56,980 nucleotides of DNA from a marine bacterium B5-7 (lineage in GTDB: Bacteria > Pseudomonadota > Gammaproteobacteria > Arenicellales > CAJQKF01): positions 1 to 56,980 of the forward strand of contig BQJD01000023.1 of assembly GCA_021604525.1 (NCBI GenBank), given 5' to 3'. Numbering within the stretch: position 1 is the first letter of the stretch; the number at the start of each line of letters is the position of its first letter. Under the pieces are notes generated by a model, which saw only the letters and a list, made by a program, of their open reading frames with translations, was not told the origin of the DNA and did not search any database. Positions 3,264 through 21,924 of this stretch are shown here, one piece after another. The position numbers and the translations under genes were made by a program.

Positions 3264-3866
3264 CTACTCGACGACTTCGGCCTTGATCAACACAACATCT
3301 TCGGACGGCACATCGCTATGTGGTCCAAAGGTTGTGGTTTTGACCTGGGCCATCTTGTCGACCACATCAATACCATCAACGACCTTGGCAAATACGGCAT
3401 ATCCCCAACCAGAGGGCGTCTTGCTGCGAAAATCAAGAAATTCATTGTTCTTCAGATTGATAAAGAACTGGGACGTAGCTGAGTCCGGGTCGTTGGTTCG
3501 TGCCATGGACAACGTCCCGGCGGTATTTTTAAGACCATTGTCGGCTTCGTTACGGATGGGATCACGAGTCGGTTTTTGCTGCATGCCCGGTTCCATGCCA
3601 CCGCCTTGAACGACAAAATCAGGGATCACGCGATGGAAAATAGTGCCATCGTAAAAGCCGTCTTCCACGTATTTGACGAAATTCTCAACCGTTATCGGCG
3701 CCTCATCGGGATACACTTCGATGAAAATATCACCCAAGCTGGTTGTAAATTTGATCATGTTACTACTCCTGTTGTCTTGCTGGGCGCCCACCGGGGTAAG
3801 CGATATTGCATTGAAAATACCAAAAAATAAAACTGCAGCAACCAAGCGATTGAATCTTCTTTCCAA
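3264..3866 (-). CDS. Peptidyl-prolyl cis-trans isomerase, cyclophilin type, possible dual start
   Basis: The protein is a cyclophilin catalysing proline isomerisation during folding. The core from residue 37 is very close to E. coli PpiB, with GTIFHRVI, VQGGGMEPG, NEADNGLKNT, MART and SQFFIN in order. Two starts are plausible. The long form begins at a TTG (3866), three bases after the upstream stop, with GGAG about 10 nt before it; it adds about 36 residues that look like a signal peptide (Arg-rich start, hydrophobic stretch, then VGA-QQ). The short form begins at ATG 3758 with AGGAG 7 nt upstream and is 164 residues, the length of cytoplasmic PpiB. The first would be periplasmic and the second cytoplasmic. 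The gene follows the EVE-domain gene and ends at a terminator. Confidence 0.93.
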   Translation of the reverse strand: MERRFNRLVAAVLFFGIFNAISLTPVGAQQDNRSSNMIKFTTSLGDIFIEVYPDEAPITVENFVKYVEDGFYDGTIFHRVIPDFVVQGGGMEPGMQQKPTRDPIRNEADNGLKNTAGTLSMARTNDPDSATSQFFINLKNNEFLDFRSKTPSGWGYAVFAKVVDGIDVVDKMAQVKTTTFGPHSDVPSEDVVLIKAEVVE

Positions 3867-3869
3867 AAT

Positions 3870-4382
3870 TTAGCCACTCCGTTTGTTATCAGTTACTGAT
3901 TTGCCCGGTGATTCTCCGACCAATTGATGAACCATCTGCCATTCATCCGCAGTAACCGGGGTAATGGACAGGCGGGAGCCTTTCTGGGCAACACGCATGG
4001 ACGACAATATCGGGTGAGCCTTCAGGTCTTTCAGGCTGAGCGTGTTGCGAAATTTCTTTCGATAGCGCAAGTCGACCATGAACCATCTCGGATTATCCGG
4101 ATCACTTTTCGGATCGAAATAATGAGATTCGGGATCGAAAGCAGTGTGATCTGGATACGCTTCGCTCACAATCTCCGCCACGCCGACGATAGACGGTTCA
4201 TCACAGTTAGAGTGATAGAAAAGAACCAGGTCACCCTTCTTCATATCGTCGCGCATGAAGTTTCGCGCCTGATAGTTTCGAATCCCGTCCCAGTGATCGG
4301 TTTTGTGCGGCATGTTTTTCAAGTCATCGATAGAGAACGTGTCGGGCTCGCTCTTCATCAACCAATAATTTACATTTTTCAC
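3870..4382 (-). CDS. EVE domain-containing protein
   Basis: This small protein (about 170 residues from the chosen start) is a single EVE domain, a PUA-related fold thought to bind modified bases in nucleic acids. Recognisable elements are YWLMKSEPDTFSIDDL at the N-terminus, WDGIRNYQARNFMRDDM, GDLVLFYHSN and the WFMVDLRY strand; these are the usual EVE landmarks. I chose the GTG at 4382 because the domain begins right after it. Upstream in-frame starts would extend into the C-terminal coding region of the YmdB-like gene in another frame. It sits 22 bases after that gene and 3 bases before the long form of the cyclophilin, so the three are probably co-transcribed. The physiological ligand is unknown. 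Confidence 0.88.
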   Translation of the reverse strand: MKNVNYWLMKSEPDTFSIDDLKNMPHKTDHWDGIRNYQARNFMRDDMKKGDLVLFYHSNCDEPSIVGVAEIVSEAYPDHTAFDPESHYFDPKSDPDNPRWFMVDLRYRKKFRNTLSLKDLKAHPILSSMRVAQKGSRLSITPVTADEWQMVHQLVGESPGKSVTDNKRSG

Positions 4383-4404
4383 TATTTGATATTCACTTGA
4401 TCGT

Positions 4405-5193
4405 TTACAGTTCAGCGCCCATACACAACCGTCGTATGGATCTCGCTTTTCCGGTACTGTCATCGACATCGATAAGTACAGCACACAACGTTGCCGCACC
4501 AGGTGCCGGTTCCAATCGCTGCGGTAACTTGCTCACAAATCGCGCCAAAGACGATTCCGTTTTCATACCGATGATCGAATTATAACAACCTGTCATTCCG
4601 ACATCGGATATATAGGCGGTACCCTGAGTCAACACACGTTCGTCTGCGGTTGGAACGTGTGTATGGGTGCCGACCACTGCGGAGACCCGACCATCGAGAT
4701 ACCAACCCATGGCAGTTTTTTCACTGGTCGCCTCGGCATGAAAGTCCACCAGAGTGACACGAACATTAGCAGGTCGTTTATTAAGAATTTCATCAGCACA
4801 ACGAAATGGGCAATCCAGGTCCGGGTGCATGAAAACCCGCCCCATGGTACATAACACACCAACACGTTCTCCGTTACGGGCAACCGCAACATACCATCCC
4901 TGTCCCGGTGTATCGTGTGGATAATTGTGTGGCCGCAACAGGCGTGGCTCATCATCGATAAAGTCCAATGCCTCACGCTTGTCCCAGACATGGTTGCCGG
5001 TCGTAATTACGTCCACGCCATTATCGAAAAACTCATCGGCAACAGCACGAGTGATACCGAATCCACCCGCGGCATTTTCACCATTAACCACAATAAAATC
5101 GATATCTTCTTCGGATTGAAGTTCCTCAAGACCCTGGAACAGTGCACGACGACCACTTCTTGCAATGACATCGCCAGCAAAGAAAATTAGCAC
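4405..5193 (-). CDS. ymdB: YmdB-family metallophosphoesterase
   Basis: A 262-residue calcineurin-like metallophosphoesterase of the YmdB (TIGR00282) family. Members characterised in Bacillus hydrolyse 2',3'-cyclic nucleotides and act as tetramers. The di-metal site residues are visible: GD near residue 8, NGEN near 38, TGNHVWD near 67, a His in DFHAE near 150 and GTHTHVPT near 175. The length is normal for the family. It is encoded between the folate cyclo-ligase and the EVE-domain gene on the same strand, an order I associate more with alphaproteobacteria, where zapA, 6S RNA, cyclo-ligase and this phosphoesterase often sit together. The in vivo substrate here is not known. Confidence 0.93.
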   Translation of the reverse strand: MLIFFAGDVIARSGRRALFQGLEELQSEEDIDFIVVNGENAAGGFGITRAVADEFFDNGVDVITTGNHVWDKREALDFIDDEPRLLRPHNYPHDTPGQGWYVAVARNGERVGVLCTMGRVFMHPDLDCPFRCADEILNKRPANVRVTLVDFHAEATSEKTAMGWYLDGRVSAVVGTHTHVPTADERVLTQGTAYISDVGMTGCYNSIIGMKTESSLARFVSKLPQRLEPAPGAATLCAVLIDVDDSTGKARSIRRLCMGAEL

Positions 5194-5226
5194 AGTGAGT
5201 GTCTCCGGTAATCCGATTCCAGACTC

Positions 5227-5847
5227 TTAATCCTGGCTATCGGTCTGCGATGATTCGAAACGGTAAAGATGTTTGTCGGTTGCAACAAAATCAAGCGGTA
5301 TATCCCACGGATCGACTGAGAGGTGATCAAGACGCTGGCATTCATGAGCAAGGCCGATTACAGCCGGCTTTCGAAAATGTTTACCGGCAGCTCTGATGGC
5401 GAGCGTGGAATCATAAAACCCACTGCCCATTCCAATACGATTACCACGGCTGTCGAATGCGACCAACGGCACCAACACGACATCGAGTTCAATTGCGCGG
5501 CGCAGTGAACGCGCATGCACCGCCGGCTCCATGATGCCGAAACGGTTGGACACGAGAGCGTTGCCGTTGATAACTTCGGCAAAACGTAGTGTCCGCCATG
5601 CAGGTCGAGGGATAACCGGAAGGAAACAACGTACCGCGAAACGACGAGCCAGGTTCATCGCAGCTTCAGGATCAATCTCACCATCGTTGGCGTAATAAAA
5701 AGCAATGCGCCGACGCGGTGCAAAAATACCTATCTTCGATAATACGTGCGATAGCCCTTGTGATGCGCGTCGCTGCATAGCCGGTGCCAGCTGCCGCCTG
5801 CAAGTTCGCATATTGCGGCGTATATCGGCCTTGGTCTCAAGGCTCAT
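5227..5847 (-). CDS. fau: 5-formyltetrahydrofolate cyclo-ligase
   Basis: The enzyme converts 5-formyl-THF to 5,10-methenyl-THF using ATP, returning stored folate to one-carbon metabolism. The diagnostic C-terminal motif, DSRGNRIGMGSGFYD, lies near residues 140-155 and forms the nucleotide/folate site. FYYANDGEID in the N-terminal half matches the usual strand carrying the conserved Glu. The start is either ATG 5847 (chosen, beginning SLETKADIRR) or ATG 5865, six codons upstream; neither has a strong ribosome site. The gene lies directly downstream of 6S RNA, as in E. coli, where the two are co-transcribed and the mRNA is processed from the 6S precursor. A short gap separates it from the YmdB-like gene. 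Confidence 0.95.
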   Translation of the reverse strand: MSLETKADIRRNMRTCRRQLAPAMQRRASQGLSHVLSKIGIFAPRRRIAFYYANDGEIDPEAAMNLARRFAVRCFLPVIPRPAWRTLRFAEVINGNALVSNRFGIMEPAVHARSLRRAIELDVVLVPLVAFDSRGNRIGMGSGFYDSTLAIRAAGKHFRKPAVIGLAHECQRLDHLSVDPWDIPLDFVATDKHLYRFESSQTDSQD

Positions 5848-5908: not shown

Positions 5909-6091
5909 GCGTCACCCGTCCATATCGTCTCGGCCCGGTACCTTGAACCAAAAGGTTCAAGTGGGAACTCCAAAACGTGCATCAGGCTTTCCGCACCAGA
6001 CGGACTTGCACAACAGCTCGCTTATCAGAATTCCCTAAGATTAATCTAGGTTCTAAGGGATTTGAGCCTACTCGCACACAACAGGTGACGC
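5909..6091 (-). ncRNA. ssrS: 6S RNA
   Basis: 6S RNA binds the sigma-70 RNA polymerase holoenzyme as an open-promoter mimic. Three things support the call. The position between zapA and the cyclo-ligase gene on the same strand is the conserved location. The conserved hairpin CTTGAACC-TTTT-GGTTCAAGG occurs near 5940-5960, as in the E. coli RNA. Finally, the ends pair: GCGTCACC at 6091-6084 with GGTGACGC at 5916-5909, giving a molecule of about 183 nt against 184 in E. coli. Seven T residues (5908-5902) follow the closing stem, so the 3' end may also act as a leaky terminator before the cyclo-ligase gene. The 5' end is placed from pairing and the upstream TACAAT. Confidence 0.92.
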
Positions 6092-12085: not shown

Positions 12086-13021
12086 TTGTCCACGCTGATC
12101 TGCGGCTCGTTCGCCTATGACACCATCATGGTGTTTCCCGATTCGTTCAAAAATCACATCCTGCCCGAGCAGGTACATATTTTGAACGTTTGTTTCATGG
12201 TCCCTGAAATGCGTCGTGAATTTGGCGGTTGCGCTGGAAATATCGCCTACACCCTGAATTTGCTCGGTGGTGACGCGGTGCCTATGGGAACAGTGGGTCA
12301 CGATTTCAGCCCCTATCGCGCGCGTTTGCATGAGCTGGGTATAAACGACCGTCACGTCACTGAACTACCCAACTCCTTCACCGCCCAGGCATTTATCACC
12401 ACTGATATGGATGACAATCAAATCATTGCCTTCCATCCCGGTGCCATGTCCGAGGCACATTGCAACCATGTACGTGATGTGGACGGGGTCGATCTCGGCA
12501 TCGTCGCCCCGGATGGTCGTGAGGCCATGATACAAAATGCGCGCGAGTTCAGCGAAGTGGGAATCCCCTTCGTGTTTGACCCGGGCCAAGGTCTGCCAAT
12601 GTTTGATGGCAACGACTTGAACGCCTTCGTCGATCAGGCAACGTGGGTGATCGTTAACGACTATGAATCACGAATGCTCGAAGAGAAAACCGGTGATTCC
12701 ATCGACACGATCGCGTCAAAAGTCAGCGCCCTGATTGTCACCCTGGGATCACGCGGATCAAAAATTTATACCGCTGGAGAAGTCTTCGATATACCGGCAG
12801 TACCGACCAACAAGGCAATAGATCCGACCGGGTGCGGTGATGCCTATCGCAGCGGTCTGCTGTTCGGCATCGCCAATGAATATGACTGGGCAACCACTGG
12901 TCGTATCGCAGCCCTGGCTGGTTCGATCAAAGTACAATGTCACGGCACTCAAAATCATCACTTCAACGCGGAGTCCTTTGACCTCCAGTTCAACGAAGCA
13001 TTTGGATACGCTTTCCGTTAG
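12086..13021 (+). CDS. PfkB-family carbohydrate/nucleoside kinase
   Basis: A 311-residue ribokinase-fold kinase. The N-terminal GG switch region reads FGGCAGNIAYTLNLLGG (near 48) and the C-terminal signature is DPTGCGDAYRSG (near 248), containing the anion hole and catalytic Asp. IVTLGSRGS precedes it. The substrate cannot be read from the sequence; similar bacterial proteins are annotated as adenosine-kinase-like. The start is a TTG with GGGAG about 8 nt upstream, which supports it. It lies alone on the plus strand between fur and the convergent anti-sigma gene. Confidence 0.87.
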   Translation: MSTLICGSFAYDTIMVFPDSFKNHILPEQVHILNVCFMVPEMRREFGGCAGNIAYTLNLLGGDAVPMGTVGHDFSPYRARLHELGINDRHVTELPNSFTAQAFITTDMDDNQIIAFHPGAMSEAHCNHVRDVDGVDLGIVAPDGREAMIQNAREFSEVGIPFVFDPGQGLPMFDGNDLNAFVDQATWVIVNDYESRMLEEKTGDSIDTIASKVSALIVTLGSRGSKIYTAGEVFDIPAVPTNKAIDPTGCGDAYRSGLLFGIANEYDWATTGRIAALAGSIKVQCHGTQNHHFNAESFDLQFNEAFGYAFR

Positions 13022-13049: not shown

Positions 13050-13640
13050 TTAATCGAGATTAGCCTCACTGACAATCGCTGAATTTTCCCTGAGCTTTTC
13101 AATGACCTTGTTGATGTCGGCATTTTCAAGAGAGTGCTCAAGTTCGATTCGATAGACACCAAGCGCCCCAGGACCTGAGCGGATGGTGGCGCCCACTTCG
13201 TTTAACAGCGAACGGATCTCAGCCTCGGTCGCGGTTTCATTAAAGATGACTTCAACCCCTGCCGAACCGCCGACTCCAAGCATCTTGTAGCCATCGTCTG
13301 ACTGCCAGATATTGAACAACAAACCACCCTGAATAACCGCCAGCAGCGCTGCGGCAGCGGCAATCGCCCGCCAACGTGTCGACGTAACTGCTGGCCGGCT
13401 CCTTGTTTGGGCAATCTCCTTTTCAAGTCTCTTTTGACCAAACGCACCAAGTGAACCCTGGTCTGTCTGACGTACTTCGTCACGCAATCGTTGAAGGAAT
13501 ACTACTTCGGTTCGTGCTGCCGGGTTATTCTCGAGATACGTCTCCACCGAATGACGTTCCGCATCATCGAGGCTGCCATTTACATAAAACGGCAATAACA
13601 GATGTAAACTTTCCGGATTTTCCAGGTCTCGTTCGGTCAT
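13050..13640 (-). CDS. Membrane anti-sigma factor with subtilase-propeptide-like periplasmic domain
   Basis: A 196-residue single-pass membrane protein directly downstream of an ECF-type sigma gene. The N-terminal cytoplasmic part has the anti-sigma pattern LLPFYVNGSLDDAERHSVE but lacks the zinc-binding His/Cys residues, so it would be a zinc-free anti-sigma domain. One hydrophobic helix follows at about 90-112. The periplasmic C-terminus (about 128-196) has a VIF strand, a helix AEIRSLLNEVGATIR, a strand LGVYRIEL, a helix and the ending IVSEAN. This order resembles the I9/fervidolysin-type propeptides of subtilases and the pre-catalytic module of the nearby S8 peptidase. It starts four bases from the sigma stop, so the pair is one operon. 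The sigma-binding role is inferred. Confidence 0.82.
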   Translation of the reverse strand: MTERDLENPESLHLLLPFYVNGSLDDAERHSVETYLENNPAARTEVVFLQRLRDEVRQTDQGSLGAFGQKRLEKEIAQTRSRPAVTSTRWRAIAAAAALLAVIQGGLLFNIWQSDDGYKMLGVGGSAGVEVIFNETATEAEIRSLLNEVGATIRSGPGALGVYRIELEHSLENADINKVIEKLRENSAIVSEANLD

Positions 13641-13644
13641 CGAC

Positions 13645-14193
13645 TCATCCTCGCTTCAATCGCTCGAGGCACTGCCTGAGCATTTTCTTTGCGTGAAACA
13701 CGCGGGTCTTGACCGTGCCTTCCGGGCACTCGACAATCGTTGCGATCTCGGGGTAGGACAAATCCTCGAAAAACGCGAGATGAACGACTTCCTTGTGCGC
13801 CTCAGACAAGCCATCGAGACATTGTCTCAGCCGGTCCGAGTTTTCACTTGCTTCCAACGCAGCGGTAAAATCGGCACTGTCATCAACGATATCAAAGTCA
13901 AGTTCCTCGGCCATGTGGCGGCCGCGCTTACGAAGCGCGTCGATGGATTTACGGTGGGCAATCCCGAACAGCCAGGTAGTCACCTTCGCCTGCCCCTTGA
14001 ATGATCCCGCGCCATTCCACACCGCCATCATGGTCTCAATTACTATGTCGGCGGCAGCGTGTGGATCGTTCAATTTTCTGAGTGCAAATGCATACACCCG
14101 CGATTCATGAGCCTGATAAAAACTCGTCATGGCGCCTTCGTTACCATCGGCGATACGTGCGATTAACTCATTGTCGGACTCATGATCTGTCAT
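13645..14193 (-). CDS. ECF-type RNA polymerase sigma factor
   Basis: A 182-residue sigma-70 family protein with only regions 2 and 4. Region 2 runs from FYQAHESRVYAFALRKL through TTWLFGIAHRKSIDALRKR; region 4 from LDGLSEAHKEVVHLAFFEDL through the helix-turn-helix GTVKTRVFHAKKML. It directs transcription of a specific regulon, and the adjacent anti-sigma factor presumably holds it inactive at the membrane. A sigma-70-like promoter (TTGATT with TAACAAT about 16 nt away) may lie upstream on the minus strand, but I am not confident. Candidate targets are the SLC13 transporter gene on the other strand and the envelope genes at 16.1-21.9 kb. Confidence 0.93.
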   Translation of the reverse strand: MTDHESDNELIARIADGNEGAMTSFYQAHESRVYAFALRKLNDPHAAADIVIETMMAVWNGAGSFKGQAKVTTWLFGIAHRKSIDALRKRGRHMAEELDFDIVDDSADFTAALEASENSDRLRQCLDGLSEAHKEVVHLAFFEDLSYPEIATIVECPEGTVKTRVFHAKKMLRQCLERLKRG

Positions 14194-14316
14194 GACTTAC
14201 GGTTTACCTGATACCCTGAATCTGGAACATTTTAGTCATTGTTACCCGACTTATCTTGTAAATCAACGCGCACGCCTTTTATAGTTCTACGCTAATTAAC
14301 TTATTCGGTAAATTTC

Positions 14317-16128
14317 ATGTTCTCTGACCAGACGATTCTGTTCGGCCTGCTAACTCTGGTGTTCGCATTATTGATCTGGGGACGTATTCGCTATGATCTG
14401 GTCGCCTTCGGCGCACTGGTGCTTGCTGTCATTCTCGGAGTTGTACCCACTGATCAGGCATTCGAAGGATTTGGTCATCCAGCGACGATAATTATCGCCC
14501 TTGTATTAATCATATCCCGTGCACTTTCAAATTCCGGGGTTGTTGATATGGTGGCGAAAATGGTTTCAAAAACAGCCACATCGTTGTTCACGCACATCAG
14601 CGTGATGGCGGCAGTAGCCGCGGGATTGTCGGCAATCATGAATAACGTCGCAGCACTGGCGTTGTTGATGCCGGTCGACATCAAAGCTGCCGTAAAGGCA
14701 GGTCGCAGCCCGGCCATGACGCTGATGCCTCTGTCATTCGCATCAATTCTCGGCGGCATGATCACCCTCATCGGCACACCACCCAACATTATTGTCTCCG
14801 CATTTCGAAAGGAAACACTTGGCGAATCGTTCAGCATGTTCGACTTCACTCCCGTGGGTCTCGCCTGTGCCGTCAGCGGCGTATTGTTCGTCTCGCTGAT
14901 CGGCTGGCGTTTAATCCCCAAGGGTCGCCGCGATAGCGATTCAGGCGGGCCGCTGTTTGATATCGGTAACTATATCGCCGAGGTTCGAGTCGATAAAAAG
15001 TCCTCGACAATCGGCAAGCAGGTTCGTGAACTTGATGACGTTTGTGACGAACACGGCGTATCGATCATCGGTGTAATACGCAACAAGCGACGTATACCAG
15101 GCGGCGCACGCAGTATCGAGATAGCCGATAACGACATCCTGGTCATCGAGGCAGATGCTACATCCATCGATGGTTTTGCCGGAGATACAGGCCTTGTCTA
15201 CGAACCCGACGCCGAAAAAGACAAGGACGACAACAAGGACAACAAGGACAACAAGGATCGCACATTGGCTGGTGAACAAGTTCTTACTGAAGCAGTGGTT
15301 ACACCCGGTGCACGCATCGCCGGCAGATCTGCCCATTCGATGAAGCTGCTGGATCGTTATGGCATCACGCTGCTTGGCGTATCACGTCAGGGGCGTCGAT
15401 TTCGCCAGCAGATCCGTTCGCTTACGCTTCATCCAGGTGATGTACTGCTGCTTCTCGGTCCGGAAGGCCGTCTTGGAGAAATCATAGAATGGATCGGCGC
15501 ATTACCGCTGGCCGATCGCGAACTCGAGATAACCAAACGCAACAAGGTAGGCGCTGCAATCGCCATATTCGGTTGCGCTATTGCTGCAGCAAGCGCTGGA
15601 CTGTTGTATCTGCCTATCGCACTGGCACTGGCTTGCATACTGTTTATCGGATTGGGATTTATTCGCGGCCGACAGGTATACGATGCCATCGAATGGCCAG
15701 TCATTGTTCTGCTGGGATCAATGATCCCCCTTGGCACCGCGCTTGAATCTTCGGGCGGTACCGAACGGCTTGCCCAGCTATTGGTCGACGCCGCCGGTGA
15801 CTACGGGCCTGTGACCGTGTTGACAATATTCATGATAGCCACCATGACCCTGTCCGATGTTTTAAATAACACCGCAACGACCATCATCGCCGCACCAGTT
15901 GCCATGGACATTGCCAGCAGTCTTGATGTTAGCCCTGATCCCTTTCTGATGGCGGTCGCGGTGGCCGCATCCTGTGCATTCCTGACACCTATAGGACACA
16001 AAAATAACACCCTGATCCTGGGACCTGGCGGCTACCGTTTTGGCGATTACTGGCGAATGGGATTACCGCTTGAAATTCTAATCGTCGCCGTGGGTGTGCC
16101 GGCCATCATGATATTCTGGCCACTTTAA
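14317..16128 (+). CDS. SLC13-family permease with central RCK_C/TrkA-C domains
   Basis: A 603-residue inner-membrane carrier of the SLC13/DASS type (sodium-coupled anion, sulfate or dicarboxylate transport). About ten hydrophobic segments are visible. The membrane halves carry the paired motifs NNVAALALLMPV / GTPPNIIVSAFR and NNTATTIIAAPVA / HKNNTLILGPGGY, which are the substrate and sodium loops. Two TrkA-C-like cytoplasmic domains lie between the halves, separated by an acidic/basic linker of DNK repeats near residues 305-313. The substrate is not determined. It is divergent from the sigma factor and convergent with the subtilase gene. GGAAC at 14224-14228 is a candidate ECF-type -35 element. 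Confidence 0.88.
   Translation: MFSDQTILFGLLTLVFALLIWGRIRYDLVAFGALVLAVILGVVPTDQAFEGFGHPATIIIALVLIISRALSNSGVVDMVAKMVSKTATSLFTHISVMAAVAAGLSAIMNNVAALALLMPVDIKAAVKAGRSPAMTLMPLSFASILGGMITLIGTPPNIIVSAFRKETLGESFSMFDFTPVGLACAVSGVLFVSLIGWRLIPKGRRDSDSGGPLFDIGNYIAEVRVDKKSSTIGKQVRELDDVCDEHGVSIIGVIRNKRRIPGGARSIEIADNDILVIEADATSIDGFAGDTGLVYEPDAEKDKDDNKDNKDNKDRTLAGEQVLTEAVVTPGARIAGRSAHSMKLLDRYGITLLGVSRQGRRFRQQIRSLTLHPGDVLLLLGPEGRLGEIIEWIGALPLADRELEITKRNKVGAAIAIFGCAIAAASAGLLYLPIALALACILFIGLGFIRGRQVYDAIEWPVIVLLGSMIPLGTALESSGGTERLAQLLVDAAGDYGPVTVLTIFMIATMTLSDVLNNTATTIIAAPVAMDIASSLDVSPDPFLMAVAVAASCAFLTPIGHKNNTLILGPGGYRFGDYWRMGLPLEILIVAVGVPAIMIFWPL
15229..15255 (+). repeat. Three tandem GACAACAAG units inside the SLC13 gene
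   Basis: Three perfect 9-base units encode Asp-Asn-Lys three times in the linker between the two TrkA-C domains. Copy-number change would alter linker length without shifting the frame. Confidence 0.8.
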
Positions 16129-16143
16129 TATCTGGTTAAAGTG

Positions 16144-17811
16144 CTACTCACACAACGCACTCATATTCGGTAGCCCCCAGCCATAGAGTGGATCGAATCC
16201 GGCAGCACCGAGATCTTCACTAACCGCTGCCAGACGGCCAACCAACTCACGAGGGGTAGTCGGTGAATGCATCGTTCTTGCTGCAGCGATCGCCGCAGTA
16301 ATGAATGGCGCTGCATATGAGGTACCGCTTACATAGTGACGGCCGATTTGAGTCGGCACGAATACATCGACACCGGGTGCTGAGAAATCCACGTAGTCGC
16401 CGATATTGGCATCCCTGAACAACTTTTGATTAGCGTCAATAGCAGTCACTGCAATCACGCTATCGTAAGCAGCTGGATACACCGCTGCTGCTTGAGGGCC
16501 GCCATTGCCGGCTGCAGCAACAACCGCAACACCCAATTGATCAAGTCGTTTCATGGTCATTTCAAGGAGGCGATTGGGCGCGCCTCCAAGACTCACATTA
16601 ATGACATCCACTTCACGCTCAACCAATCTATCCATACCAGTCACTATCCATTGAACTGTAGTATCGGCGTTAGAATCGCCCTTAAGTCGAAAAGCCGCAA
16701 CACTGATTATTTGACTACGTGGTGCGACTGAAACGAAGCCATCCTTGTCAGCGCCGGTCAATATCGCCGCAACGGCGGTCCCGTGCGTGGATTCAGCGCG
16801 GGCGACACCTGCCGGCAGCACATCGATCACTTCAATTTGCGAGTCCTTGAGTAGTGGATCATCGACATCCACCAGGGTATCGATCATGCCGATTGTTGCG
16901 TGTGTTTCACATGGTTTTTGATCATCAAAACCCATCTGCGTATGCGCATAAACGCGTCCTGCTCCTTCAAGCTGATAACGATGATTGGCGTCGGCGACGA
17001 CCTCGGGAAATTCAGCGGCGAGCAGCGCCAATCCGTCGGCAACGCTAACGCCCTGTGCGAGCTGCGCGACACTCAGGATGAAACCGAGACTTTGCAGTTG
17101 CGAACGGGCCCGTACCCTTATGCCGTGGGTCCCAAGAAATATCGCCACTTGTCTTGCAATTTGTCGGTCTGGGGAGAAAAAAACCAGTTGACCAGGCTCG
17201 ACATCTGAATTTTCCAGGGTCTTTGCGGACGTATTCGTTTCGCTTGCCCCAAGAGTAGGCAGCGAACTATCGATGAGACTTGCCGTGCCTGCCGGCAGAC
17301 GATGATCTTTAGGTGGCGGGGCGATAGGCGGCTCGGCAGTGGTATTGGTCGTTCGCGGCGGCGTCACGGTATCGGTTGTTTTGCCAGGAACTTCCGGTAC
17401 ATCGGGTGTATCGGGCACACTCGGTGACGGCTTGGCTGGCGTTCTCGGTGGATCGGTTGGTTTTCGCGGCGGCGGATCGTCGCCGGACGGGCCAGGTGTA
17501 CGCAAGGTGTTGGCTCCGGATCCAGGCGGAACGTGAGTGGTCGGCGGTGGCGCAGAGCCTGAACGCGCGCCTGGATCTGATCTGGAATCCGATCCGGGAG
17601 ACACGTTATCCGGTGTTTTAATGATCACCGACGTGGCTGATTTACCGGGAGATGGGGGCACTGTCTGGACTCGAATTCCAGGGGAGGACAATACAGGACT
17701 TTTACTGGTTGTCTGTGCGCGGGCGGGCTCATTCGACCACGGGCCAAGCACCATGCTCAAGATAACCAAAGTGGGTACTGATACAGGCCGGTTTACCATG
17801 GATGCATTCAA
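16144..17811 (-). CDS. Secreted S8 (subtilisin-like) serine peptidase with Pro-rich linker
   Basis: A 555-residue exported protease. After a signal peptide ending near PARAQ (about 33) comes a Pro/Thr/Gly-rich stretch (about 45-170), then a module (about 205-275) with a VFF strand, a helix, LGFILSVAQL and the ending VVADAN, which looks like an internal propeptide. The catalytic domain follows: Asp311 (GMIDTLVD), His343 (THGTAVA), an oxyanion Asn in AAAGNGG, and Ser498 (SGTSYAAP). It is thus a complete subtilase acting outside the inner membrane. It is the last gene of a probable operon with the exported protein and the beta-barrel, and lies 2.5 kb from the anti-sigma gene on the same strand. 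Its substrate is unknown. Confidence 0.92.
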   Translation of the reverse strand: MNASMVNRPVSVPTLVILSMVLGPWSNEPARAQTTSKSPVLSSPGIRVQTVPPSPGKSATSVIIKTPDNVSPGSDSRSDPGARSGSAPPPTTHVPPGSGANTLRTPGPSGDDPPPRKPTDPPRTPAKPSPSVPDTPDVPEVPGKTTDTVTPPRTTNTTAEPPIAPPPKDHRLPAGTASLIDSSLPTLGASETNTSAKTLENSDVEPGQLVFFSPDRQIARQVAIFLGTHGIRVRARSQLQSLGFILSVAQLAQGVSVADGLALLAAEFPEVVADANHRYQLEGAGRVYAHTQMGFDDQKPCETHATIGMIDTLVDVDDPLLKDSQIEVIDVLPAGVARAESTHGTAVAAILTGADKDGFVSVAPRSQIISVAAFRLKGDSNADTTVQWIVTGMDRLVEREVDVINVSLGGAPNRLLEMTMKRLDQLGVAVVAAAGNGGPQAAAVYPAAYDSVIAVTAIDANQKLFRDANIGDYVDFSAPGVDVFVPTQIGRHYVSGTSYAAPFITAAIAAARTMHSPTTPRELVGRLAAVSEDLGAAGFDPLYGWGLPNMSALCE

Positions 17812-17950: not shown

Positions 17951-19732
17951 TTACTTGACAGCAGTCATTCGCAGCAACATGCTGGCAGCGCTCAGAAACC
18001 CATCCTTGTCTATGGCTACGATCCGGCACCAGTAACCGCTACCCGCTTCAAGATGATCCATGACAAGTTCTGATGGTGATAAACGATCAGAGTCGGCCAG
18101 AACAATTGCACCCGTAATCATGCCTCCTGTCATCTCGGTATTGGCATAGCATTCAAAACGGTAGGCGCGTGCCCCGTCAACCGGTAACCAACGAAATTCC
18201 GTGCGAGTTCCGAGTGGCGTTTCACCCACCGGTGCCAGCAGTGTGATCTCCGGTAAATTATTGTTGTCGCCCATCCGTGCACCAGAAGGCAGAACGTAGT
18301 AGCGGAGAACCGGCAATTCGAATAGCACATCGGGTCGTGTGATTCGCAACCTGAGCAATACCCCGCCCTCATCAACCGTCGGCAAAGCCGGGCTTAGCAG
18401 ACGGATGCGTTGCAGATTATTTAAAAACTCCCTGACCAGGGTCGACGTTCGACGAGTCTCGAAACTATCTGTCAGTACGTCCATGGGCGCAACAGTACCG
18501 GCAGGTAGCGGCCTGAAAAACGGCGCTCCACCCGCTACCACCGGTGCCCATTCCCACACAGCATGTAGTTGACCTGAGCCCAGGTAGTTGATATCGGCAA
18601 CTACATTGAGTTCGATATCACCATCAATGACCTTAACTCTTGATCCGTCATTGAAGCGCAAATCCACGCGGGTGATCTGAAAATCTGCTAGTGACGATGT
18701 TCCAATCGGCACGCGAATATCGGCTGTGTAACTATCGAATCCATCGCTGAACACACGCCTTAATACGACCTGGCGTGAACCGAGCTCATGTGCCTTGGCT
18801 GCCACCGAAGCCGGTATGAGCACCGGTTCGGCAAGGACTTCGCTGCTGGTTCGTGCCGCTTGACTCGGAAACGTCTCGGCCAGGGTTTTTGCCCGGTTGA
18901 GTCCACGGGACAGCGTTGTGGTCAGTGCTCTTGAAATGCGTCCGAGTACACGTCCATCCAGTGTTCGCATCTCAAGCATGGGAGAGCGAACGGTGAGTGG
19001 CGGCGGTGAGCCGAGAGTCTGCAAGCGTATGGTCCAGTCGAGCGACATGGGAATGCTCGCAGATGTCCCAACTGGCAGTAGCGTGGTCCTGGATTTACCG
19101 GTTACATCCACAATCCTTGATTGAGCCAGGTCAACATCGATGTTCAGTCGTCGCCCGATGGCCACTTCAAACGTCGCCGATTGTGGCGAAAATATGGCGG
19201 TTGTAAAACTCCGGGTGAAACGTAGTTGAACAGATTTCGCGGAGATCTTCCTGTTCAGCGCATCGCCCAATGTCACTCCTTCAAGGGCAATTCGCACAAT
19301 CTGCTGACGAATAGCCGGGGTTAATACAAGATTCTCACTGACTGTCGCGCAGCTGCCAGCATTGACAGGGCAATTAGACACCAGGGACGGTCCCTGCGAA
19401 CCAGCCGTTGTCCCATTAATTACCAGATTGCCGGCGGTTGAACTGAACACATAATCATTTACCTGGGTTTGAAAGACAGGTGTCCATGAGAGATTGAACG
19501 AGCTTGGGGTCAGCGTCGTATTCGGCACGATTCCAAGACGGTCGAGTACGTCGGCAAGCGGCGTACGTTCATCGATACCCGCGATGTTGCTGCGGCGGGT
19601 CAAGTCCACCAGCGCGGAGATATTTATGGTGGCTGTGGCTACCTTGGGAGACAAGCCCACATCGATGGCCCATAAGACGGTCGATAACGTGGACAAAATC
19701 AATGTCAGCAGATAACAACAGATTTTCTTCAT
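17951..19732 (-). CDS. Large exported protein of unknown function with C-terminal Fn3-like domain
   Basis: I do not recognise this family. From ATG 19732 the protein is about 593 residues and begins with a typical signal peptide (KKICCYLLTLILSTLSTVLWA). The body is Ser/Thr- and beta-rich, with one close Cys pair (NCPVNAGSC), suggesting a folded periplasmic or surface protein. The last 100 residues have an Ig/Fn3-like pattern (FRWLPVDGARAYRFECY, then GSGYWCRIVAIDKDG) seen in extracellular beta-sandwich modules. It starts 20 bases after the outer-membrane beta-barrel gene and is followed after 139 bases by the subtilase, so the three probably form an operon and may work together at the cell surface. 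Confidence 0.8.
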   Translation of the reverse strand: MKKICCYLLTLILSTLSTVLWAIDVGLSPKVATATINISALVDLTRRSNIAGIDERTPLADVLDRLGIVPNTTLTPSSFNLSWTPVFQTQVNDYVFSSTAGNLVINGTTAGSQGPSLVSNCPVNAGSCATVSENLVLTPAIRQQIVRIALEGVTLGDALNRKISAKSVQLRFTRSFTTAIFSPQSATFEVAIGRRLNIDVDLAQSRIVDVTGKSRTTLLPVGTSASIPMSLDWTIRLQTLGSPPPLTVRSPMLEMRTLDGRVLGRISRALTTTLSRGLNRAKTLAETFPSQAARTSSEVLAEPVLIPASVAAKAHELGSRQVVLRRVFSDGFDSYTADIRVPIGTSSLADFQITRVDLRFNDGSRVKVIDGDIELNVVADINYLGSGQLHAVWEWAPVVAGGAPFFRPLPAGTVAPMDVLTDSFETRRTSTLVREFLNNLQRIRLLSPALPTVDEGGVLLRLRITRPDVLFELPVLRYYVLPSGARMGDNNNLPEITLLAPVGETPLGTRTEFRWLPVDGARAYRFECYANTEMTGGMITGAIVLADSDRLSPSELVMDHLEAGSGYWCRIVAIDKDGFLSAASMLLRMTAVK

Positions 19733-19752
19733 GACATCAGCCGAAACAAATT

Positions 19753-21924
19753 TTAAGGTGACTGGGTGGCAACGGACCAATCCATTCGCGCACCAACAAA
19801 CACCTGGTAGGGACTCAAGTCAAAGCCCGGGTTCACACGATCTTCGAACTTCTGCCGCTCACCGTATAACCACAATGTCCAGCCCGGTTGCTGGGCGTCA
19901 CTTTGCCGAAGCTGCCAGTCGAATCGAACACCAAGTGTTTCGATTCGGCTATCCGTTAAGTCGTCGCGATCGCCATCACGGTTCACACTGTAATTAACCG
20001 TCGTGTTCAGTCGATCATCCAAAGCTAAGAAACTCAAGTCGATACCCGCCAGACGCGTGCGCGTGACATTGCCGGTAAGCTCATCCTTTATCGCGTTGTA
20101 CTGCAATTGGGTACCAAAAAGGAATCGATTATTTGCCTGCCACTGGACACTGAAATCAGTGAGTTCGTGGTGGTTATCGATTCCGAAATCGCCAAAATCC
20201 TTTTCTATGGAGTAACTGTGATTCAATCCCAGGTAAACATTCTCATAGCGCGTGGTAACACCGCCAAGCAAGGTCGTAGTTTGTCGATTGATTGCAAAGT
20301 CATCGAATAAAATCGGCACATCTTCATGGATCTGGTCGGAATACTGTGCGGCTACTGTGAATGTCGGTTGACCAAGCCATCCGGGTAGAGGCTTATCATC
20401 TGTAGTGGCTCCAACCGCGGGCGTCCACGACAGGCTCAAAGAGGCAAGATCGTTATACAGCGTTGGCAGATTGGGATCGTTATCAACGTTGTCCTGTTCC
20501 TGTGCCAACTGCAACTGAACCGCCAGCCCATCAACCTGAAGAACACTGAAAACACGATCGAGTTTTCGATCGAATGGTAGTGACGGATTGGCCAGACTCC
20601 TGAAAAACAGCCCGATTTCCTTTTGCTCATAACCAATACTAAAGTCAGCCTGTCTCTGCCCAAAAGACTTGCCCTTGAAAATATGGAATAACCCCAGAAA
20701 CGACCGCGCGTCGTCATCGTTTCTATCAAACGCATCTCCCGAGCCGTCAAAATCGTAACGGGTTTCGGCGAACTCCCCACGAAGTTTTATCCGTCTGGAT
20801 GCAAGGTTGGATTCCGCTGCGATACTGTAGCCATCACCTTGCGGGAGAATGTCGTTACCGACGATTCCCAAGCCGGAATGGTCCTGGCCTTCGCCACTTA
20901 AATAAGTTGCAGTGATCGTCAGTGGGTCTTTGCCGGACGGCAATGGGCTGACCGATAGCATGCCGCCGGCAACCCGATGCTGATGGTCACCCACGCCACT
21001 TAATCCATAGCGAAATCCGCTCACCGGCTCGGTGCGATAGGCAAACCCCGAAGCAATCAAGGCTTCACCATCTGTTTTTCCCGTCAAGGATACGCCTCGG
21101 CGATAAAAATCCTGAATCAACAATCCATCGGCGACGGGGGCATGATGCCCAAGCAAAGCGGTTACACCATTCCCTTGCGCTGACAGTTTGTACTCGCCCA
21201 CTTCGAATTCGCGACCCTGACGTGGATCCTCACCGGGAACTATTGCATCGGCCAGCACACTGCCGACCTGGGCACCGTTTGAATCATAGATAAAATTTGC
21301 ATCAACCTCGGTTGTTATCGATTGTCCGGCTACCGCACCATTGATCGCAACGGCACCTTGCGCACCGCTTGATGCGCCGTCATCAAGAAGATCACCCTCA
21401 GCCAGGCGGTAGTTGCCCTCAAGGGAAAAGTTGGCGGAGAAAAATTTTGTGATATCGCTTGTTTGAACCGAGCCGTTGGCACCAACCACATCCAGCGTCC
21501 ATAGACCGCGCTCAAGGATATCGCCAACCGGGCTGTACTCCACCAACCGAAGCTCATGCTGGCCGACATCCAACGGCTGCGGTGGAGTTACAGAAACAAT
21601 GAGGGTGCTGTCAACCTGCTCAAGCTTGACGATTTCACTGACATCAACAGCGTCGATTTCAAGAGCCAGCCATTGAACACTGTCAAAGGGCATGTCTGGC
21701 GGCAACTTTACCCGCATAGCCGTCTGATCACCGGGAGTTATCAAGGTATCGGAGATCAGTTCGGGAATCCAGTCGCGGGTCTCTTCGGCTATCGTATTAA
21801 CTGGCGATAATACGATCAGCCCCAAAAGAATCGGCACACGATTCAATACCCTGACGACACACCGTAATGATGTCCAAACAATCTTATGTCGGGTATGGCA
21901 GTCAGTCGTGTCCAGCAAACTCAT
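19753..21924 (-). CDS. Predicted outer-membrane beta-barrel protein with N-terminal Ig-like domain
   Basis: A 723-residue protein that I cannot assign to a named family. A hydrophobic export segment lies at about 30-47. Residues about 50-150 form an Ig-like beta-sandwich pattern. From about 160 onward there are many amphipathic strands with alternating hydrophobic residues and turns rich in Asp, Gly and Asn (SANFSLEGNYRLAEGD, TTEVDANFIYDSN, WLYGERQKFEDRVN), which is the appearance of a large outer-membrane barrel. It heads the probable operon with the 593-residue exported protein and the subtilase. A transport or display role is inference. Confidence 0.8.
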   Translation of the reverse strand: MSLLDTTDCHTRHKIVWTSLRCVVRVLNRVPILLGLIVLSPVNTIAEETRDWIPELISDTLITPGDQTAMRVKLPPDMPFDSVQWLALEIDAVDVSEIVKLEQVDSTLIVSVTPPQPLDVGQHELRLVEYSPVGDILERGLWTLDVVGANGSVQTSDITKFFSANFSLEGNYRLAEGDLLDDGASSGAQGAVAINGAVAGQSITTEVDANFIYDSNGAQVGSVLADAIVPGEDPRQGREFEVGEYKLSAQGNGVTALLGHHAPVADGLLIQDFYRRGVSLTGKTDGEALIASGFAYRTEPVSGFRYGLSGVGDHQHRVAGGMLSVSPLPSGKDPLTITATYLSGEGQDHSGLGIVGNDILPQGDGYSIAAESNLASRRIKLRGEFAETRYDFDGSGDAFDRNDDDARSFLGLFHIFKGKSFGQRQADFSIGYEQKEIGLFFRSLANPSLPFDRKLDRVFSVLQVDGLAVQLQLAQEQDNVDNDPNLPTLYNDLASLSLSWTPAVGATTDDKPLPGWLGQPTFTVAAQYSDQIHEDVPILFDDFAINRQTTTLLGGVTTRYENVYLGLNHSYSIEKDFGDFGIDNHHELTDFSVQWQANNRFLFGTQLQYNAIKDELTGNVTRTRLAGIDLSFLALDDRLNTTVNYSVNRDGDRDDLTDSRIETLGVRFDWQLRQSDAQQPGWTLWLYGERQKFEDRVNPGFDLSPYQVFVGARMDWSVATQSP

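Follow-up and report, generated by a model that had tools for sequence, protein, structure and literature searches.

We examined a 56,980-nucleotide stretch of DNA (the window) from the marine bacterium B5-7 (Gammaproteobacteria, Arenicellales; assembly GCA_021604525.1, contig BQJD01000023.1), in which a 196-amino-acid (aa) membrane protein, predicted to be a class I anti-sigma factor of the extracytoplasmic function (ECF) type, is encoded on the same strand as a subtilase of peptidase family S8. By profile and predicted fold, the periplasmic end of the anti-sigma factor is a subtilase-propeptide-like domain. We propose, with a probability of roughly one half, that these genes belong to an envelope-signalling module: the co-encoded protease would dock on the anti-sigma factor and would most likely serve as its site-1 protease. 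Because the outer domain is propeptide-like and a subtilase gene adjoins the anti-sigma gene in most relatives, the subtilase probably controls the sigma switch. The original prediction, made by eye from the letters of the window, had interpreted the domain as a possible mimic of a subtilase propeptide, through which the protease could recognize and cleave the anti-sigma factor or be titrated by it, and that interpretation is supported by the analyses described here.

Relatives were drawn from a scan of a species-genome collection, which gave 272 pattern matches, 219 of them confirmed as relatives; the best 80 of the 219 are the named loci referred to below. The family was found in Alpha-, Beta-, and Gammaproteobacteria, in Nitrospirota, and in a few others. 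An ECF sigma gene lay directly 5' of the anti-sigma gene in the window and, as counted by script, in 79 of the 80 named loci (L139 also counts as sigma-adjacent if the start of its match is used). This location 3' of an ECF sigma gene and the N-terminal helical sigma-binding domain are both traits of class I ECF anti-sigma factors. The window protein matched the NCBIfam model NF052375, "anti-sigma factor," with 45 bits (E, 1.2e-11), which is below that model's cut-off of 100, and all 81 family members matched it at an E of ≤0.01. Compared with the PDB, the family profile found ChrR (2q1z; E, 0.0035) and RslA (3hug; E, 0.032). The Pfam zinc-finger model zf-HC2 had no match in the window protein and matched 48 of the 81 family members at an E of ≤0.1. 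According to passages of PMC7406223, class I anti-sigma domains occur with and without the zinc motif, which is absent from RskA and RseA.

An AlphaFold2 (AF2) model of the anti-sigma factor, built on the 81-row family alignment, had a mean predicted local distance difference test score (pLDDT) of 87, with blocks of 89 to 98 from residue 131 on, and a predicted template modeling score (pTM) of 0.47. The model has a helical N-terminal part, followed by a long helix. Its last 71 residues form a beta-alpha-beta-beta-alpha-beta domain (strand 129-133, helix 139-149, strands 151-155 and 162-167, helix 173-185, and strand 190-195), an order of elements common to many unrelated families. When the whole model was searched with Foldseek, the subtilisin propeptide chains 1spb_P, 3whi_A, 3cnq_P, and 1scj_B stood at ranks 2, 4, 5, and 7, and subtilase prodomains or prodomain-bearing subtilases made up 14 of the 50 PDB rows listed (probability, 0.96 to 1.00). 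Similarly, prodomains or the inhibitor POIA1 accounted for 18 of the 50 rows listed by VIA-align (Z, 6.5 to 7.9). Against a cut-off of 21 bits, the Pfam model of the fervidolysin N-terminal prodomain, PF22148, gave 16.8 bits for residues 132-188 of the window protein, 20.3 bits for a relative of the same genus, and 23 bits for the Maritimibacter protein at L124; 24 of the 81 family members matched at an E of ≤0.1 (best, 8.9e-6). The expected propeptide-profile match was thus found, over the cut-off in one checked relative (L124) and below it in the window itself. The domain and the S8 domain are in separate genes in the window rather than in one polypeptide, and no open reading frame (ORF) carrying both labels was found when a natural fusion was sought in the 80 named loci.

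The window subtilase (P0003) has a Peptidase_S8 domain, an Asp-His-Ser triad (D311/H343/S498, with oxyanion residue N436), and a prodomain. At an E of ≤1e-5, the genome contains three S8 genes. By eye, the protein has a signal-peptide-like start and a Pro-rich stretch to about residue 170. In an alignment (A4) of the window protein with those from 63 of the 65 loci that carry the gene next to the anti-sigma gene (L088 and L151, which are partial, were left out), the Asp column was conserved in 64/64 rows, His in 63/64 (one X), Ser in 62/64 (two gaps), and the oxyanion Asn in 60/64 (two D and two E). The type without the oxyanion Asn thus makes up 4 of the 64 rows; by eye, a distant subtilase group (L062, L066, L067, L071, L073, and L077) likewise keeps the catalytic Ser and has no oxyanion-hole Asn, and the subtilases of L062, L067, L071, and L077 have a lipoprotein-like start. 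The AF2 model of residues 196-555, from which the N-terminal 195 residues were left out, had a mean pLDDT of 93 and a pTM of 0.92, and placed a beta-alpha-beta-beta-alpha-beta unit directly before the catalytic domain. In a fold search with this model, the best E value belonged to unprocessed pro-subtilisin E (3whi) and the highest TMq listed, 0.81, to fervidolysin (1r6v).

We then compared the two domains directly. With insert columns removed, the profile-profile alignment of the anti-sigma domain and the subtilase prodomain scored 15.9, and none of 400 column shuffles scored as high (best, 14.0). All controls scored lower: the reversed profile reached 3.4, the sigma-binding domain 1.3, an HMA domain (a ferredoxin-like fold) 2.3, and six tiles of the S8 catalytic domain, over columns 1-224 of 253, 0.9 to 6.4. 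The alignment joins anti-sigma residues 126-196 to S8 residues 206-276 over their full length, close to the pairing of about 128-196 with about 205-275 that the original prediction had drawn by eye, and it includes the pairing of the two endings, IVSEAN and VVADAN. The gene positions and shared strand were as first described, and the common order of elements proposed for the two segments recurs in both AF2 models at high pLDDT.

Where the anti-sigma protein ends bears on what the domain could do. The last residues of a subtilase propeptide fill the active-site cleft. In the VIA alignments, anti-sigma residue 196, the last of the protein, corresponded to residue 71 of the 77-residue prosegment of 1spb and also to residue 71 in 3cnq, and in 80 complete family rows the protein ended 26 to 47 residues past the conserved Tyr 163 column. 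By structural alignment of the model, the anti-sigma domain is without the last six or so propeptide residues. That the domain stops about where the active-site tail of a propeptide would start goes beyond the original prediction. A protein that ends before the inhibitory tail favors docking over inhibition, and docking would here leave the active site open. According to the titles of 3a3n and 3a3o, the loss of two or five residues does not keep a Tk-propeptide from forming a complex with a subtilisin.

In most of the family, a subtilase gene comes next after that of the anti-sigma factor. Of the 80 named loci, 65 have it directly 3' and on the same strand, and the first possible S8 start there lies no further than 38 bases beyond the anti-sigma gene. 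It is important to note that the loci are one related family, so that these are not 65 independent events. The remaining named loci comprise 10 with a caspase-domain gene (see below), three that end at or near a contig edge (L093, L105, and L128), and L086, where the contig, from a relative in the window's genus, has no S8 gene after the anti-sigma gene; at L156 (Acidobacteriota), a subtilase gene lies upstream on the opposite strand (3852-5369). The order W723, W609, sigma, anti-sigma, S8, which includes two further cluster members, was found in 33 of the 80. Some loci, those of Pelagibius included, have two adjacent copies of W609 (L087, L090, L096, L097, L099, L103, L110, and L113). As controls, we used same-class zf-HC2 loci without the domain: of 53 zf-HC2 places, 47 were taken (of the other six, five bore the domain and were already included elsewhere, and one was at a contig edge), and one of the 47, L237, gave no ORF. 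None of the resulting 46 loci had an S8 gene in the 4 to 9 kb read, and 40 had an adjacent sigma gene; the S8 model detected 10 of 10 unrelated S8 loci. The co-occurrence of sigma, anti-sigma, and S8 genes, whose absence would have counted against the original prediction, is therefore strongly conserved, at 65/80 loci versus 0/46 controls.

A class-wide sample of 369 genomes gave a match in 35 of them, at 38 places, one of which was the window; 35 of the 37 other places were used (G094:C113 and G400:C259 were left out). This sample overlaps the first, since several of its loci share their contigs with named loci (for instance, L052 and L091); a single genome accounts for both L073 and L085, two copies. 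A domain model trained on the 81 rows of alignment A3 was passed by 25 of the 35 class loci, with an S8 gene downstream in 18 of these; L060 and L069 end at or near a contig edge, and L065 has a caspase-domain gene. Of the 10 loci that failed the model, four had an S8 gene (L071, L075, L077, and L084) and six did not, among them L081 and L082, which do not resemble anti-sigma factors. The domain-bearing anti-sigma factors of L061 (6050-6727), L063 (6248-6895), and L064 (6870-7538) all end in Trp; by eye, their neighbors are carAB-like, with no adjoining protease.

Further, the periplasmic domain appears to be linked to the S8 catalytic domain beyond operon membership. Across 63 loci (the 65 minus L088 and L151), pairwise divergence of the S8 catalytic domain correlated with that of the periplasmic domain at 0.56 and with that of the sigma-binding domain at 0.41. 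With sigma held constant, the correlation was 0.32 for the periplasmic domain (partial Mantel P, 0.0005) and 0.06 for the sigma-binding domain (P, 0.13), and the difference between the two was zero or less in 0.7% of 300 bootstraps. The domain thus appears tied to the catalytic domain rather than just to the operon, in the sense of a correlation among related loci between segments of unequal length.

One clade has a caspase-like enzyme as the adjoining protease, an observation that also goes beyond the original prediction. In 10 of the 80 named loci, from Variovorax, Azohydromonas, Rhodoferax, Rhodocyclaceae, a Burkholderiales genome, and a Methylococcaceae genome, a caspase-domain (C14) protein stands in the place of S8. 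Seven were scanned with Pfam Peptidase_C14 (E, 2.7e-34 to 5.9e-41), and the other three were identified by tblastn; a D-A-C-R motif is conserved in the eight C14 proteins caught by text search, and by eye several have a signal-peptide-like start. On the midpoint-rooted anti-sigma tree, the C14 loci form one group (support, 96/85) that requires one change, and they did so in 97% of 200 bootstrap trees. Homology between the C14-linked and the S8-linked anti-sigma domains is clear (whole-length alignment; score, 100.5). Against the S8 prodomain they scored 12.6, from residue 32 onward only and out of register, and PF22148 had no match in four C14-linked anti-sigma proteins (L140, L157, and L160 at an E of ≤0.01; L144 at an E of ≤0.1). 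The replacement indicates that the module retains a protease, which need not be a subtilase. A single swap that preserves a protease next to the anti-sigma factor was counted in favor of the proposed module.

The module, as we picture it, would consist of the ECF sigma factor, the membrane anti-sigma factor, and the secreted subtilase, joined in many relatives by W723 and W609 upstream. The mature subtilase would dock on the anti-sigma domain as on its own prodomain, and its active site would stay open during docking, since the six or so residues that end a propeptide are missing from the anti-sigma factor. The enzyme would then make the site-1 cut in the anti-sigma factor, close to the membrane; a second cut, inside the membrane, would fall to an RseP-type protease, and sigma would be freed. 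It is a guess that sigma also drives its own cluster. The triad kept in the subtilases speaks for enzymatic action, and the genome has an RseP-type (M50) homologue on contig C11 (PF02163, 226 bits, over the cut-off).

Several results weigh against this proposal. The absolute similarity of the two domains is weak (HHalign probability, ∼3%; single-pair P, 0.0045 to 0.0063), PF22148 matched only 2 of 64 of the subtilases' own prodomains at an E of ≤0.1, and when PDB sequences were searched with a profile built from the domain alone (57 of the 81 rows), no propeptide turned up. Foldseek gave no match to the anti-sigma model at an E of ≤0.001, the best propeptide among the 50 rows listed having an E of 0.044. 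The top VIA row was a mitoribosomal chain (Z, 8.2), and FtsX, NikR, ACT, and S6-like chains tied with the propeptides at Z values that, below 8, can reflect merely a common arrangement; given these ties with other ferredoxin-like chains, the fold alone is not decisive. The S8 enzyme already has its own prodomain, with which the partial correlation was 0.18 for the periplasmic domain versus 0.13 for the sigma-binding domain, a small contrast. Four class-sample loci (L061, L063, L064, and L074) have the domain with no neighboring S8 or C14 gene. A search of G150, G271, and G371 with P0003 found no S8 gene; the same search missed the G271 S8 gene that the profile found at L079 and is therefore insensitive. 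A gapped-dyad search for a shared ECF promoter motif 5' of the sigma gene and the cluster, with start codons taken as first-start guesses, found nothing clear. Moreover, caspases are not known to have a prodomain of this kind, so that propeptide mimicry cannot be the mechanism in the C14 clade.

The main rival reading is titration of the protease by the domain. The anti-sigma factor would then carry a membrane-tethered trans-propeptide that holds, inhibits, or reports the subtilase, and binding would alter the grip on sigma without site-1 cleavage. The abstract of PMC10580911 describes a propeptide that inhibits its cognate subtilase in trans, strongly and selectively, and the title of 3a3o states that a Tk-propeptide minus five C-terminal residues still complexes its subtilase; the coevolution of the domain with the S8 catalytic domain and the presence of POIA1, a propeptide-like inhibitor, among the fold matches fit such a role as well. 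However, by structural alignment the domain has no tail to occupy the active site, and an inhibitor role leaves the swap to a caspase-like enzyme without a reason. We consider titration unlikely.

Alternatively, the subtilase may be a mere output of the regulon and the periplasmic domain a generic ferredoxin-like sensor of another ligand, a reading to which we give slightly less credence. It would accommodate the C14 swap, the four class-sample loci with the domain and no adjoining protease, the equally high VIA scores of other ferredoxin-like folds, and the lack of a promoter motif in our search, but it sits poorly with a coevolution with the S8 catalytic domain that is specific to this domain, with profile matches that are to a subtilase prodomain, and with the absence of S8 from all 46 controls. 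Chance resemblance of two small alpha/beta domains could account for the low HHalign probability, the below-cut-off PF22148 match in the window, and a PDB sequence search without a propeptide. The 0/400 shuffles, the control scores and control loci, the family-wide Pfam matches, the fold search, and the gene neighborhood all speak against chance, which we regard as very improbable and rejected on the strength of the shuffles, the controls, and the family-wide profile matches.

In the window (Table 1), a transporter gene on the opposite strand sits between the sigma and S8 genes, so that these are not contiguous as they are in most relatives; the original prediction did not mention this gene. 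W609 and W723 lie upstream of the subtilase gene on the same strand; W723 is, by eye only, a possible outer-membrane beta-barrel. In G002, a genome of the same genus, the transporter, S8, W609, and W723 genes are together at L049, and the sigma and anti-sigma genes are on another contig (L004), beside a homologue of a 311-residue gene that likewise adjoins the sigma and anti-sigma genes in the window, at 12086. In G006, from the window's order, the sigma gene, the anti-sigma gene, and a homologue of the window subtilase gene are contiguous. The simplest reading is that the window holds a rearranged five-gene cluster. A 6S RNA gene is also present in the window at 5909-6090 on the minus strand (Rfam RF00013, 64.6 bits).

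TABLE 1 Features of the predicted module and its surroundings, with C14 genes of relatives
Feature	Position	Strand	Basis
ECF sigma factor, regions 2 and 4	13645..14193	-	Pfam Sigma70_r2 5.4e-17, Sigma70_r4_2 5.3e-14
Predicted membrane anti-sigma factor, 196 aa	13050..13640	-	NCBIfam NF052375; N-terminal helices like RslA 3hug
Predicted sigma-binding region of anti-sigma factor, about residues 10-62, helical	13455..13613	-	AF2 helices
Predicted single membrane helix of anti-sigma factor, residues 89-113	13302..13376	-	AF2 helix; span by eye (hydrophobicity); topology inferred
Periplasmic subtilase-propeptide-like domain (predicted), residues 126-196, to C terminus	13053..13265	-	AF2, profiles, Foldseek
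CitMHS-type transporter, outside module	14317..16128	+	Pfam CitMHS 9e-83
S8 subtilase, 555 aa, TTG start	16144..17811	-	Pfam Peptidase_S8 1.8e-31
Subtilase catalytic domain	16174..16899	-	PF00082 match
Subtilase's own prodomain, residues 204-280, beta-alpha-beta-beta-alpha-beta	16972..17202	-	AF2 model of residues 196-555
W609, cluster member, no Pfam family at E ≤1	17951..19780	-	Homologue 5' of anti-sigma gene in 38/80 loci
W723, cluster member, no Pfam family at E ≤1	19753..21924	-	Homologue 5' of anti-sigma gene in 36/80 loci
C14 genes, among others	L140 7616-8452, L148 7603-8949, L158 4358-5224, L160 1576-3051, L165 6695-7519		

The preferred reading, cleavage by a docked subtilase, has parallels in known systems. 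In eukaryotes, the subtilase SKI-1/S1P cuts first and the site-2 protease, an M50 enzyme, cuts second. The order proposed here would be the same, a subtilase followed by an M50 protease, with another substrate and another topology. Tentatively, the proposal can be extended to a broader one, which we hold possible rather than probable: a captured subtilase prodomain without its tail may let a dedicated site-1 subtilase recognize the anti-sigma factor, in a widespread arrangement that parallels S1P/S2P and in which a secreted caspase-like enzyme replaced the subtilase in one clade. Compared with subtilase prodomains (that of fervidolysin, PF22148, and I9) and POIA1, the anti-sigma domain shares the beta-alpha-beta-beta-alpha-beta order, a weak profile match, and a close tie to a subtilase. 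It differs in that it is carried, alongside a sigma-binding domain, by a membrane protein distinct from the subtilase, and in that it ends before the active-site tail.

Among bacterial systems, the RseA/DegS/RseP pathway of Escherichia coli, in which an anti-sigma factor undergoes regulated intramembrane proteolysis, is similar in its membrane anti-sigma factor, its ECF sigma factor, its periplasmic protease (here a proposed one), and RseP, of which the window's genome has a homologue. According to a passage of PMC8103513, DegS is the site-1 protease of RseA. Whereas DegS is an HtrA-type protease with a PDZ domain, the candidate here is an S8 subtilase whose gene, in most relatives, adjoins that of the anti-sigma factor, and the recognition domain would be propeptide-like. 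The context of ECF54, as given in passages of PMC8999054, includes a subtilase, a carboxypeptidase, and CHAT proteins, and proteolytic control without an anti-sigma factor is proposed there. On the evidence of those passages, ECF54 resembles the module in having a subtilase gene near an ECF sigma gene; the module differs from it in its dedicated anti-sigma factor, which bears a propeptide-like domain. Among the matches listed in a literature search of titles and abstract starts, we found no anti-sigma factor with a subtilase prodomain, and the term "propeptide" does not occur in the main text of PMC7406223; the context tables of the 2021 ECF re-classification may mention S8.

To our knowledge, the site-1 protease or the signal is not known for many ECF systems. 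In this family, a candidate protease, a possible docking domain, and the replacement of one protease class by another can all be read side by side in the genomes. Because the two are encoded side by side, the protease's choice of anti-sigma factor would be directly testable with two purified proteins.

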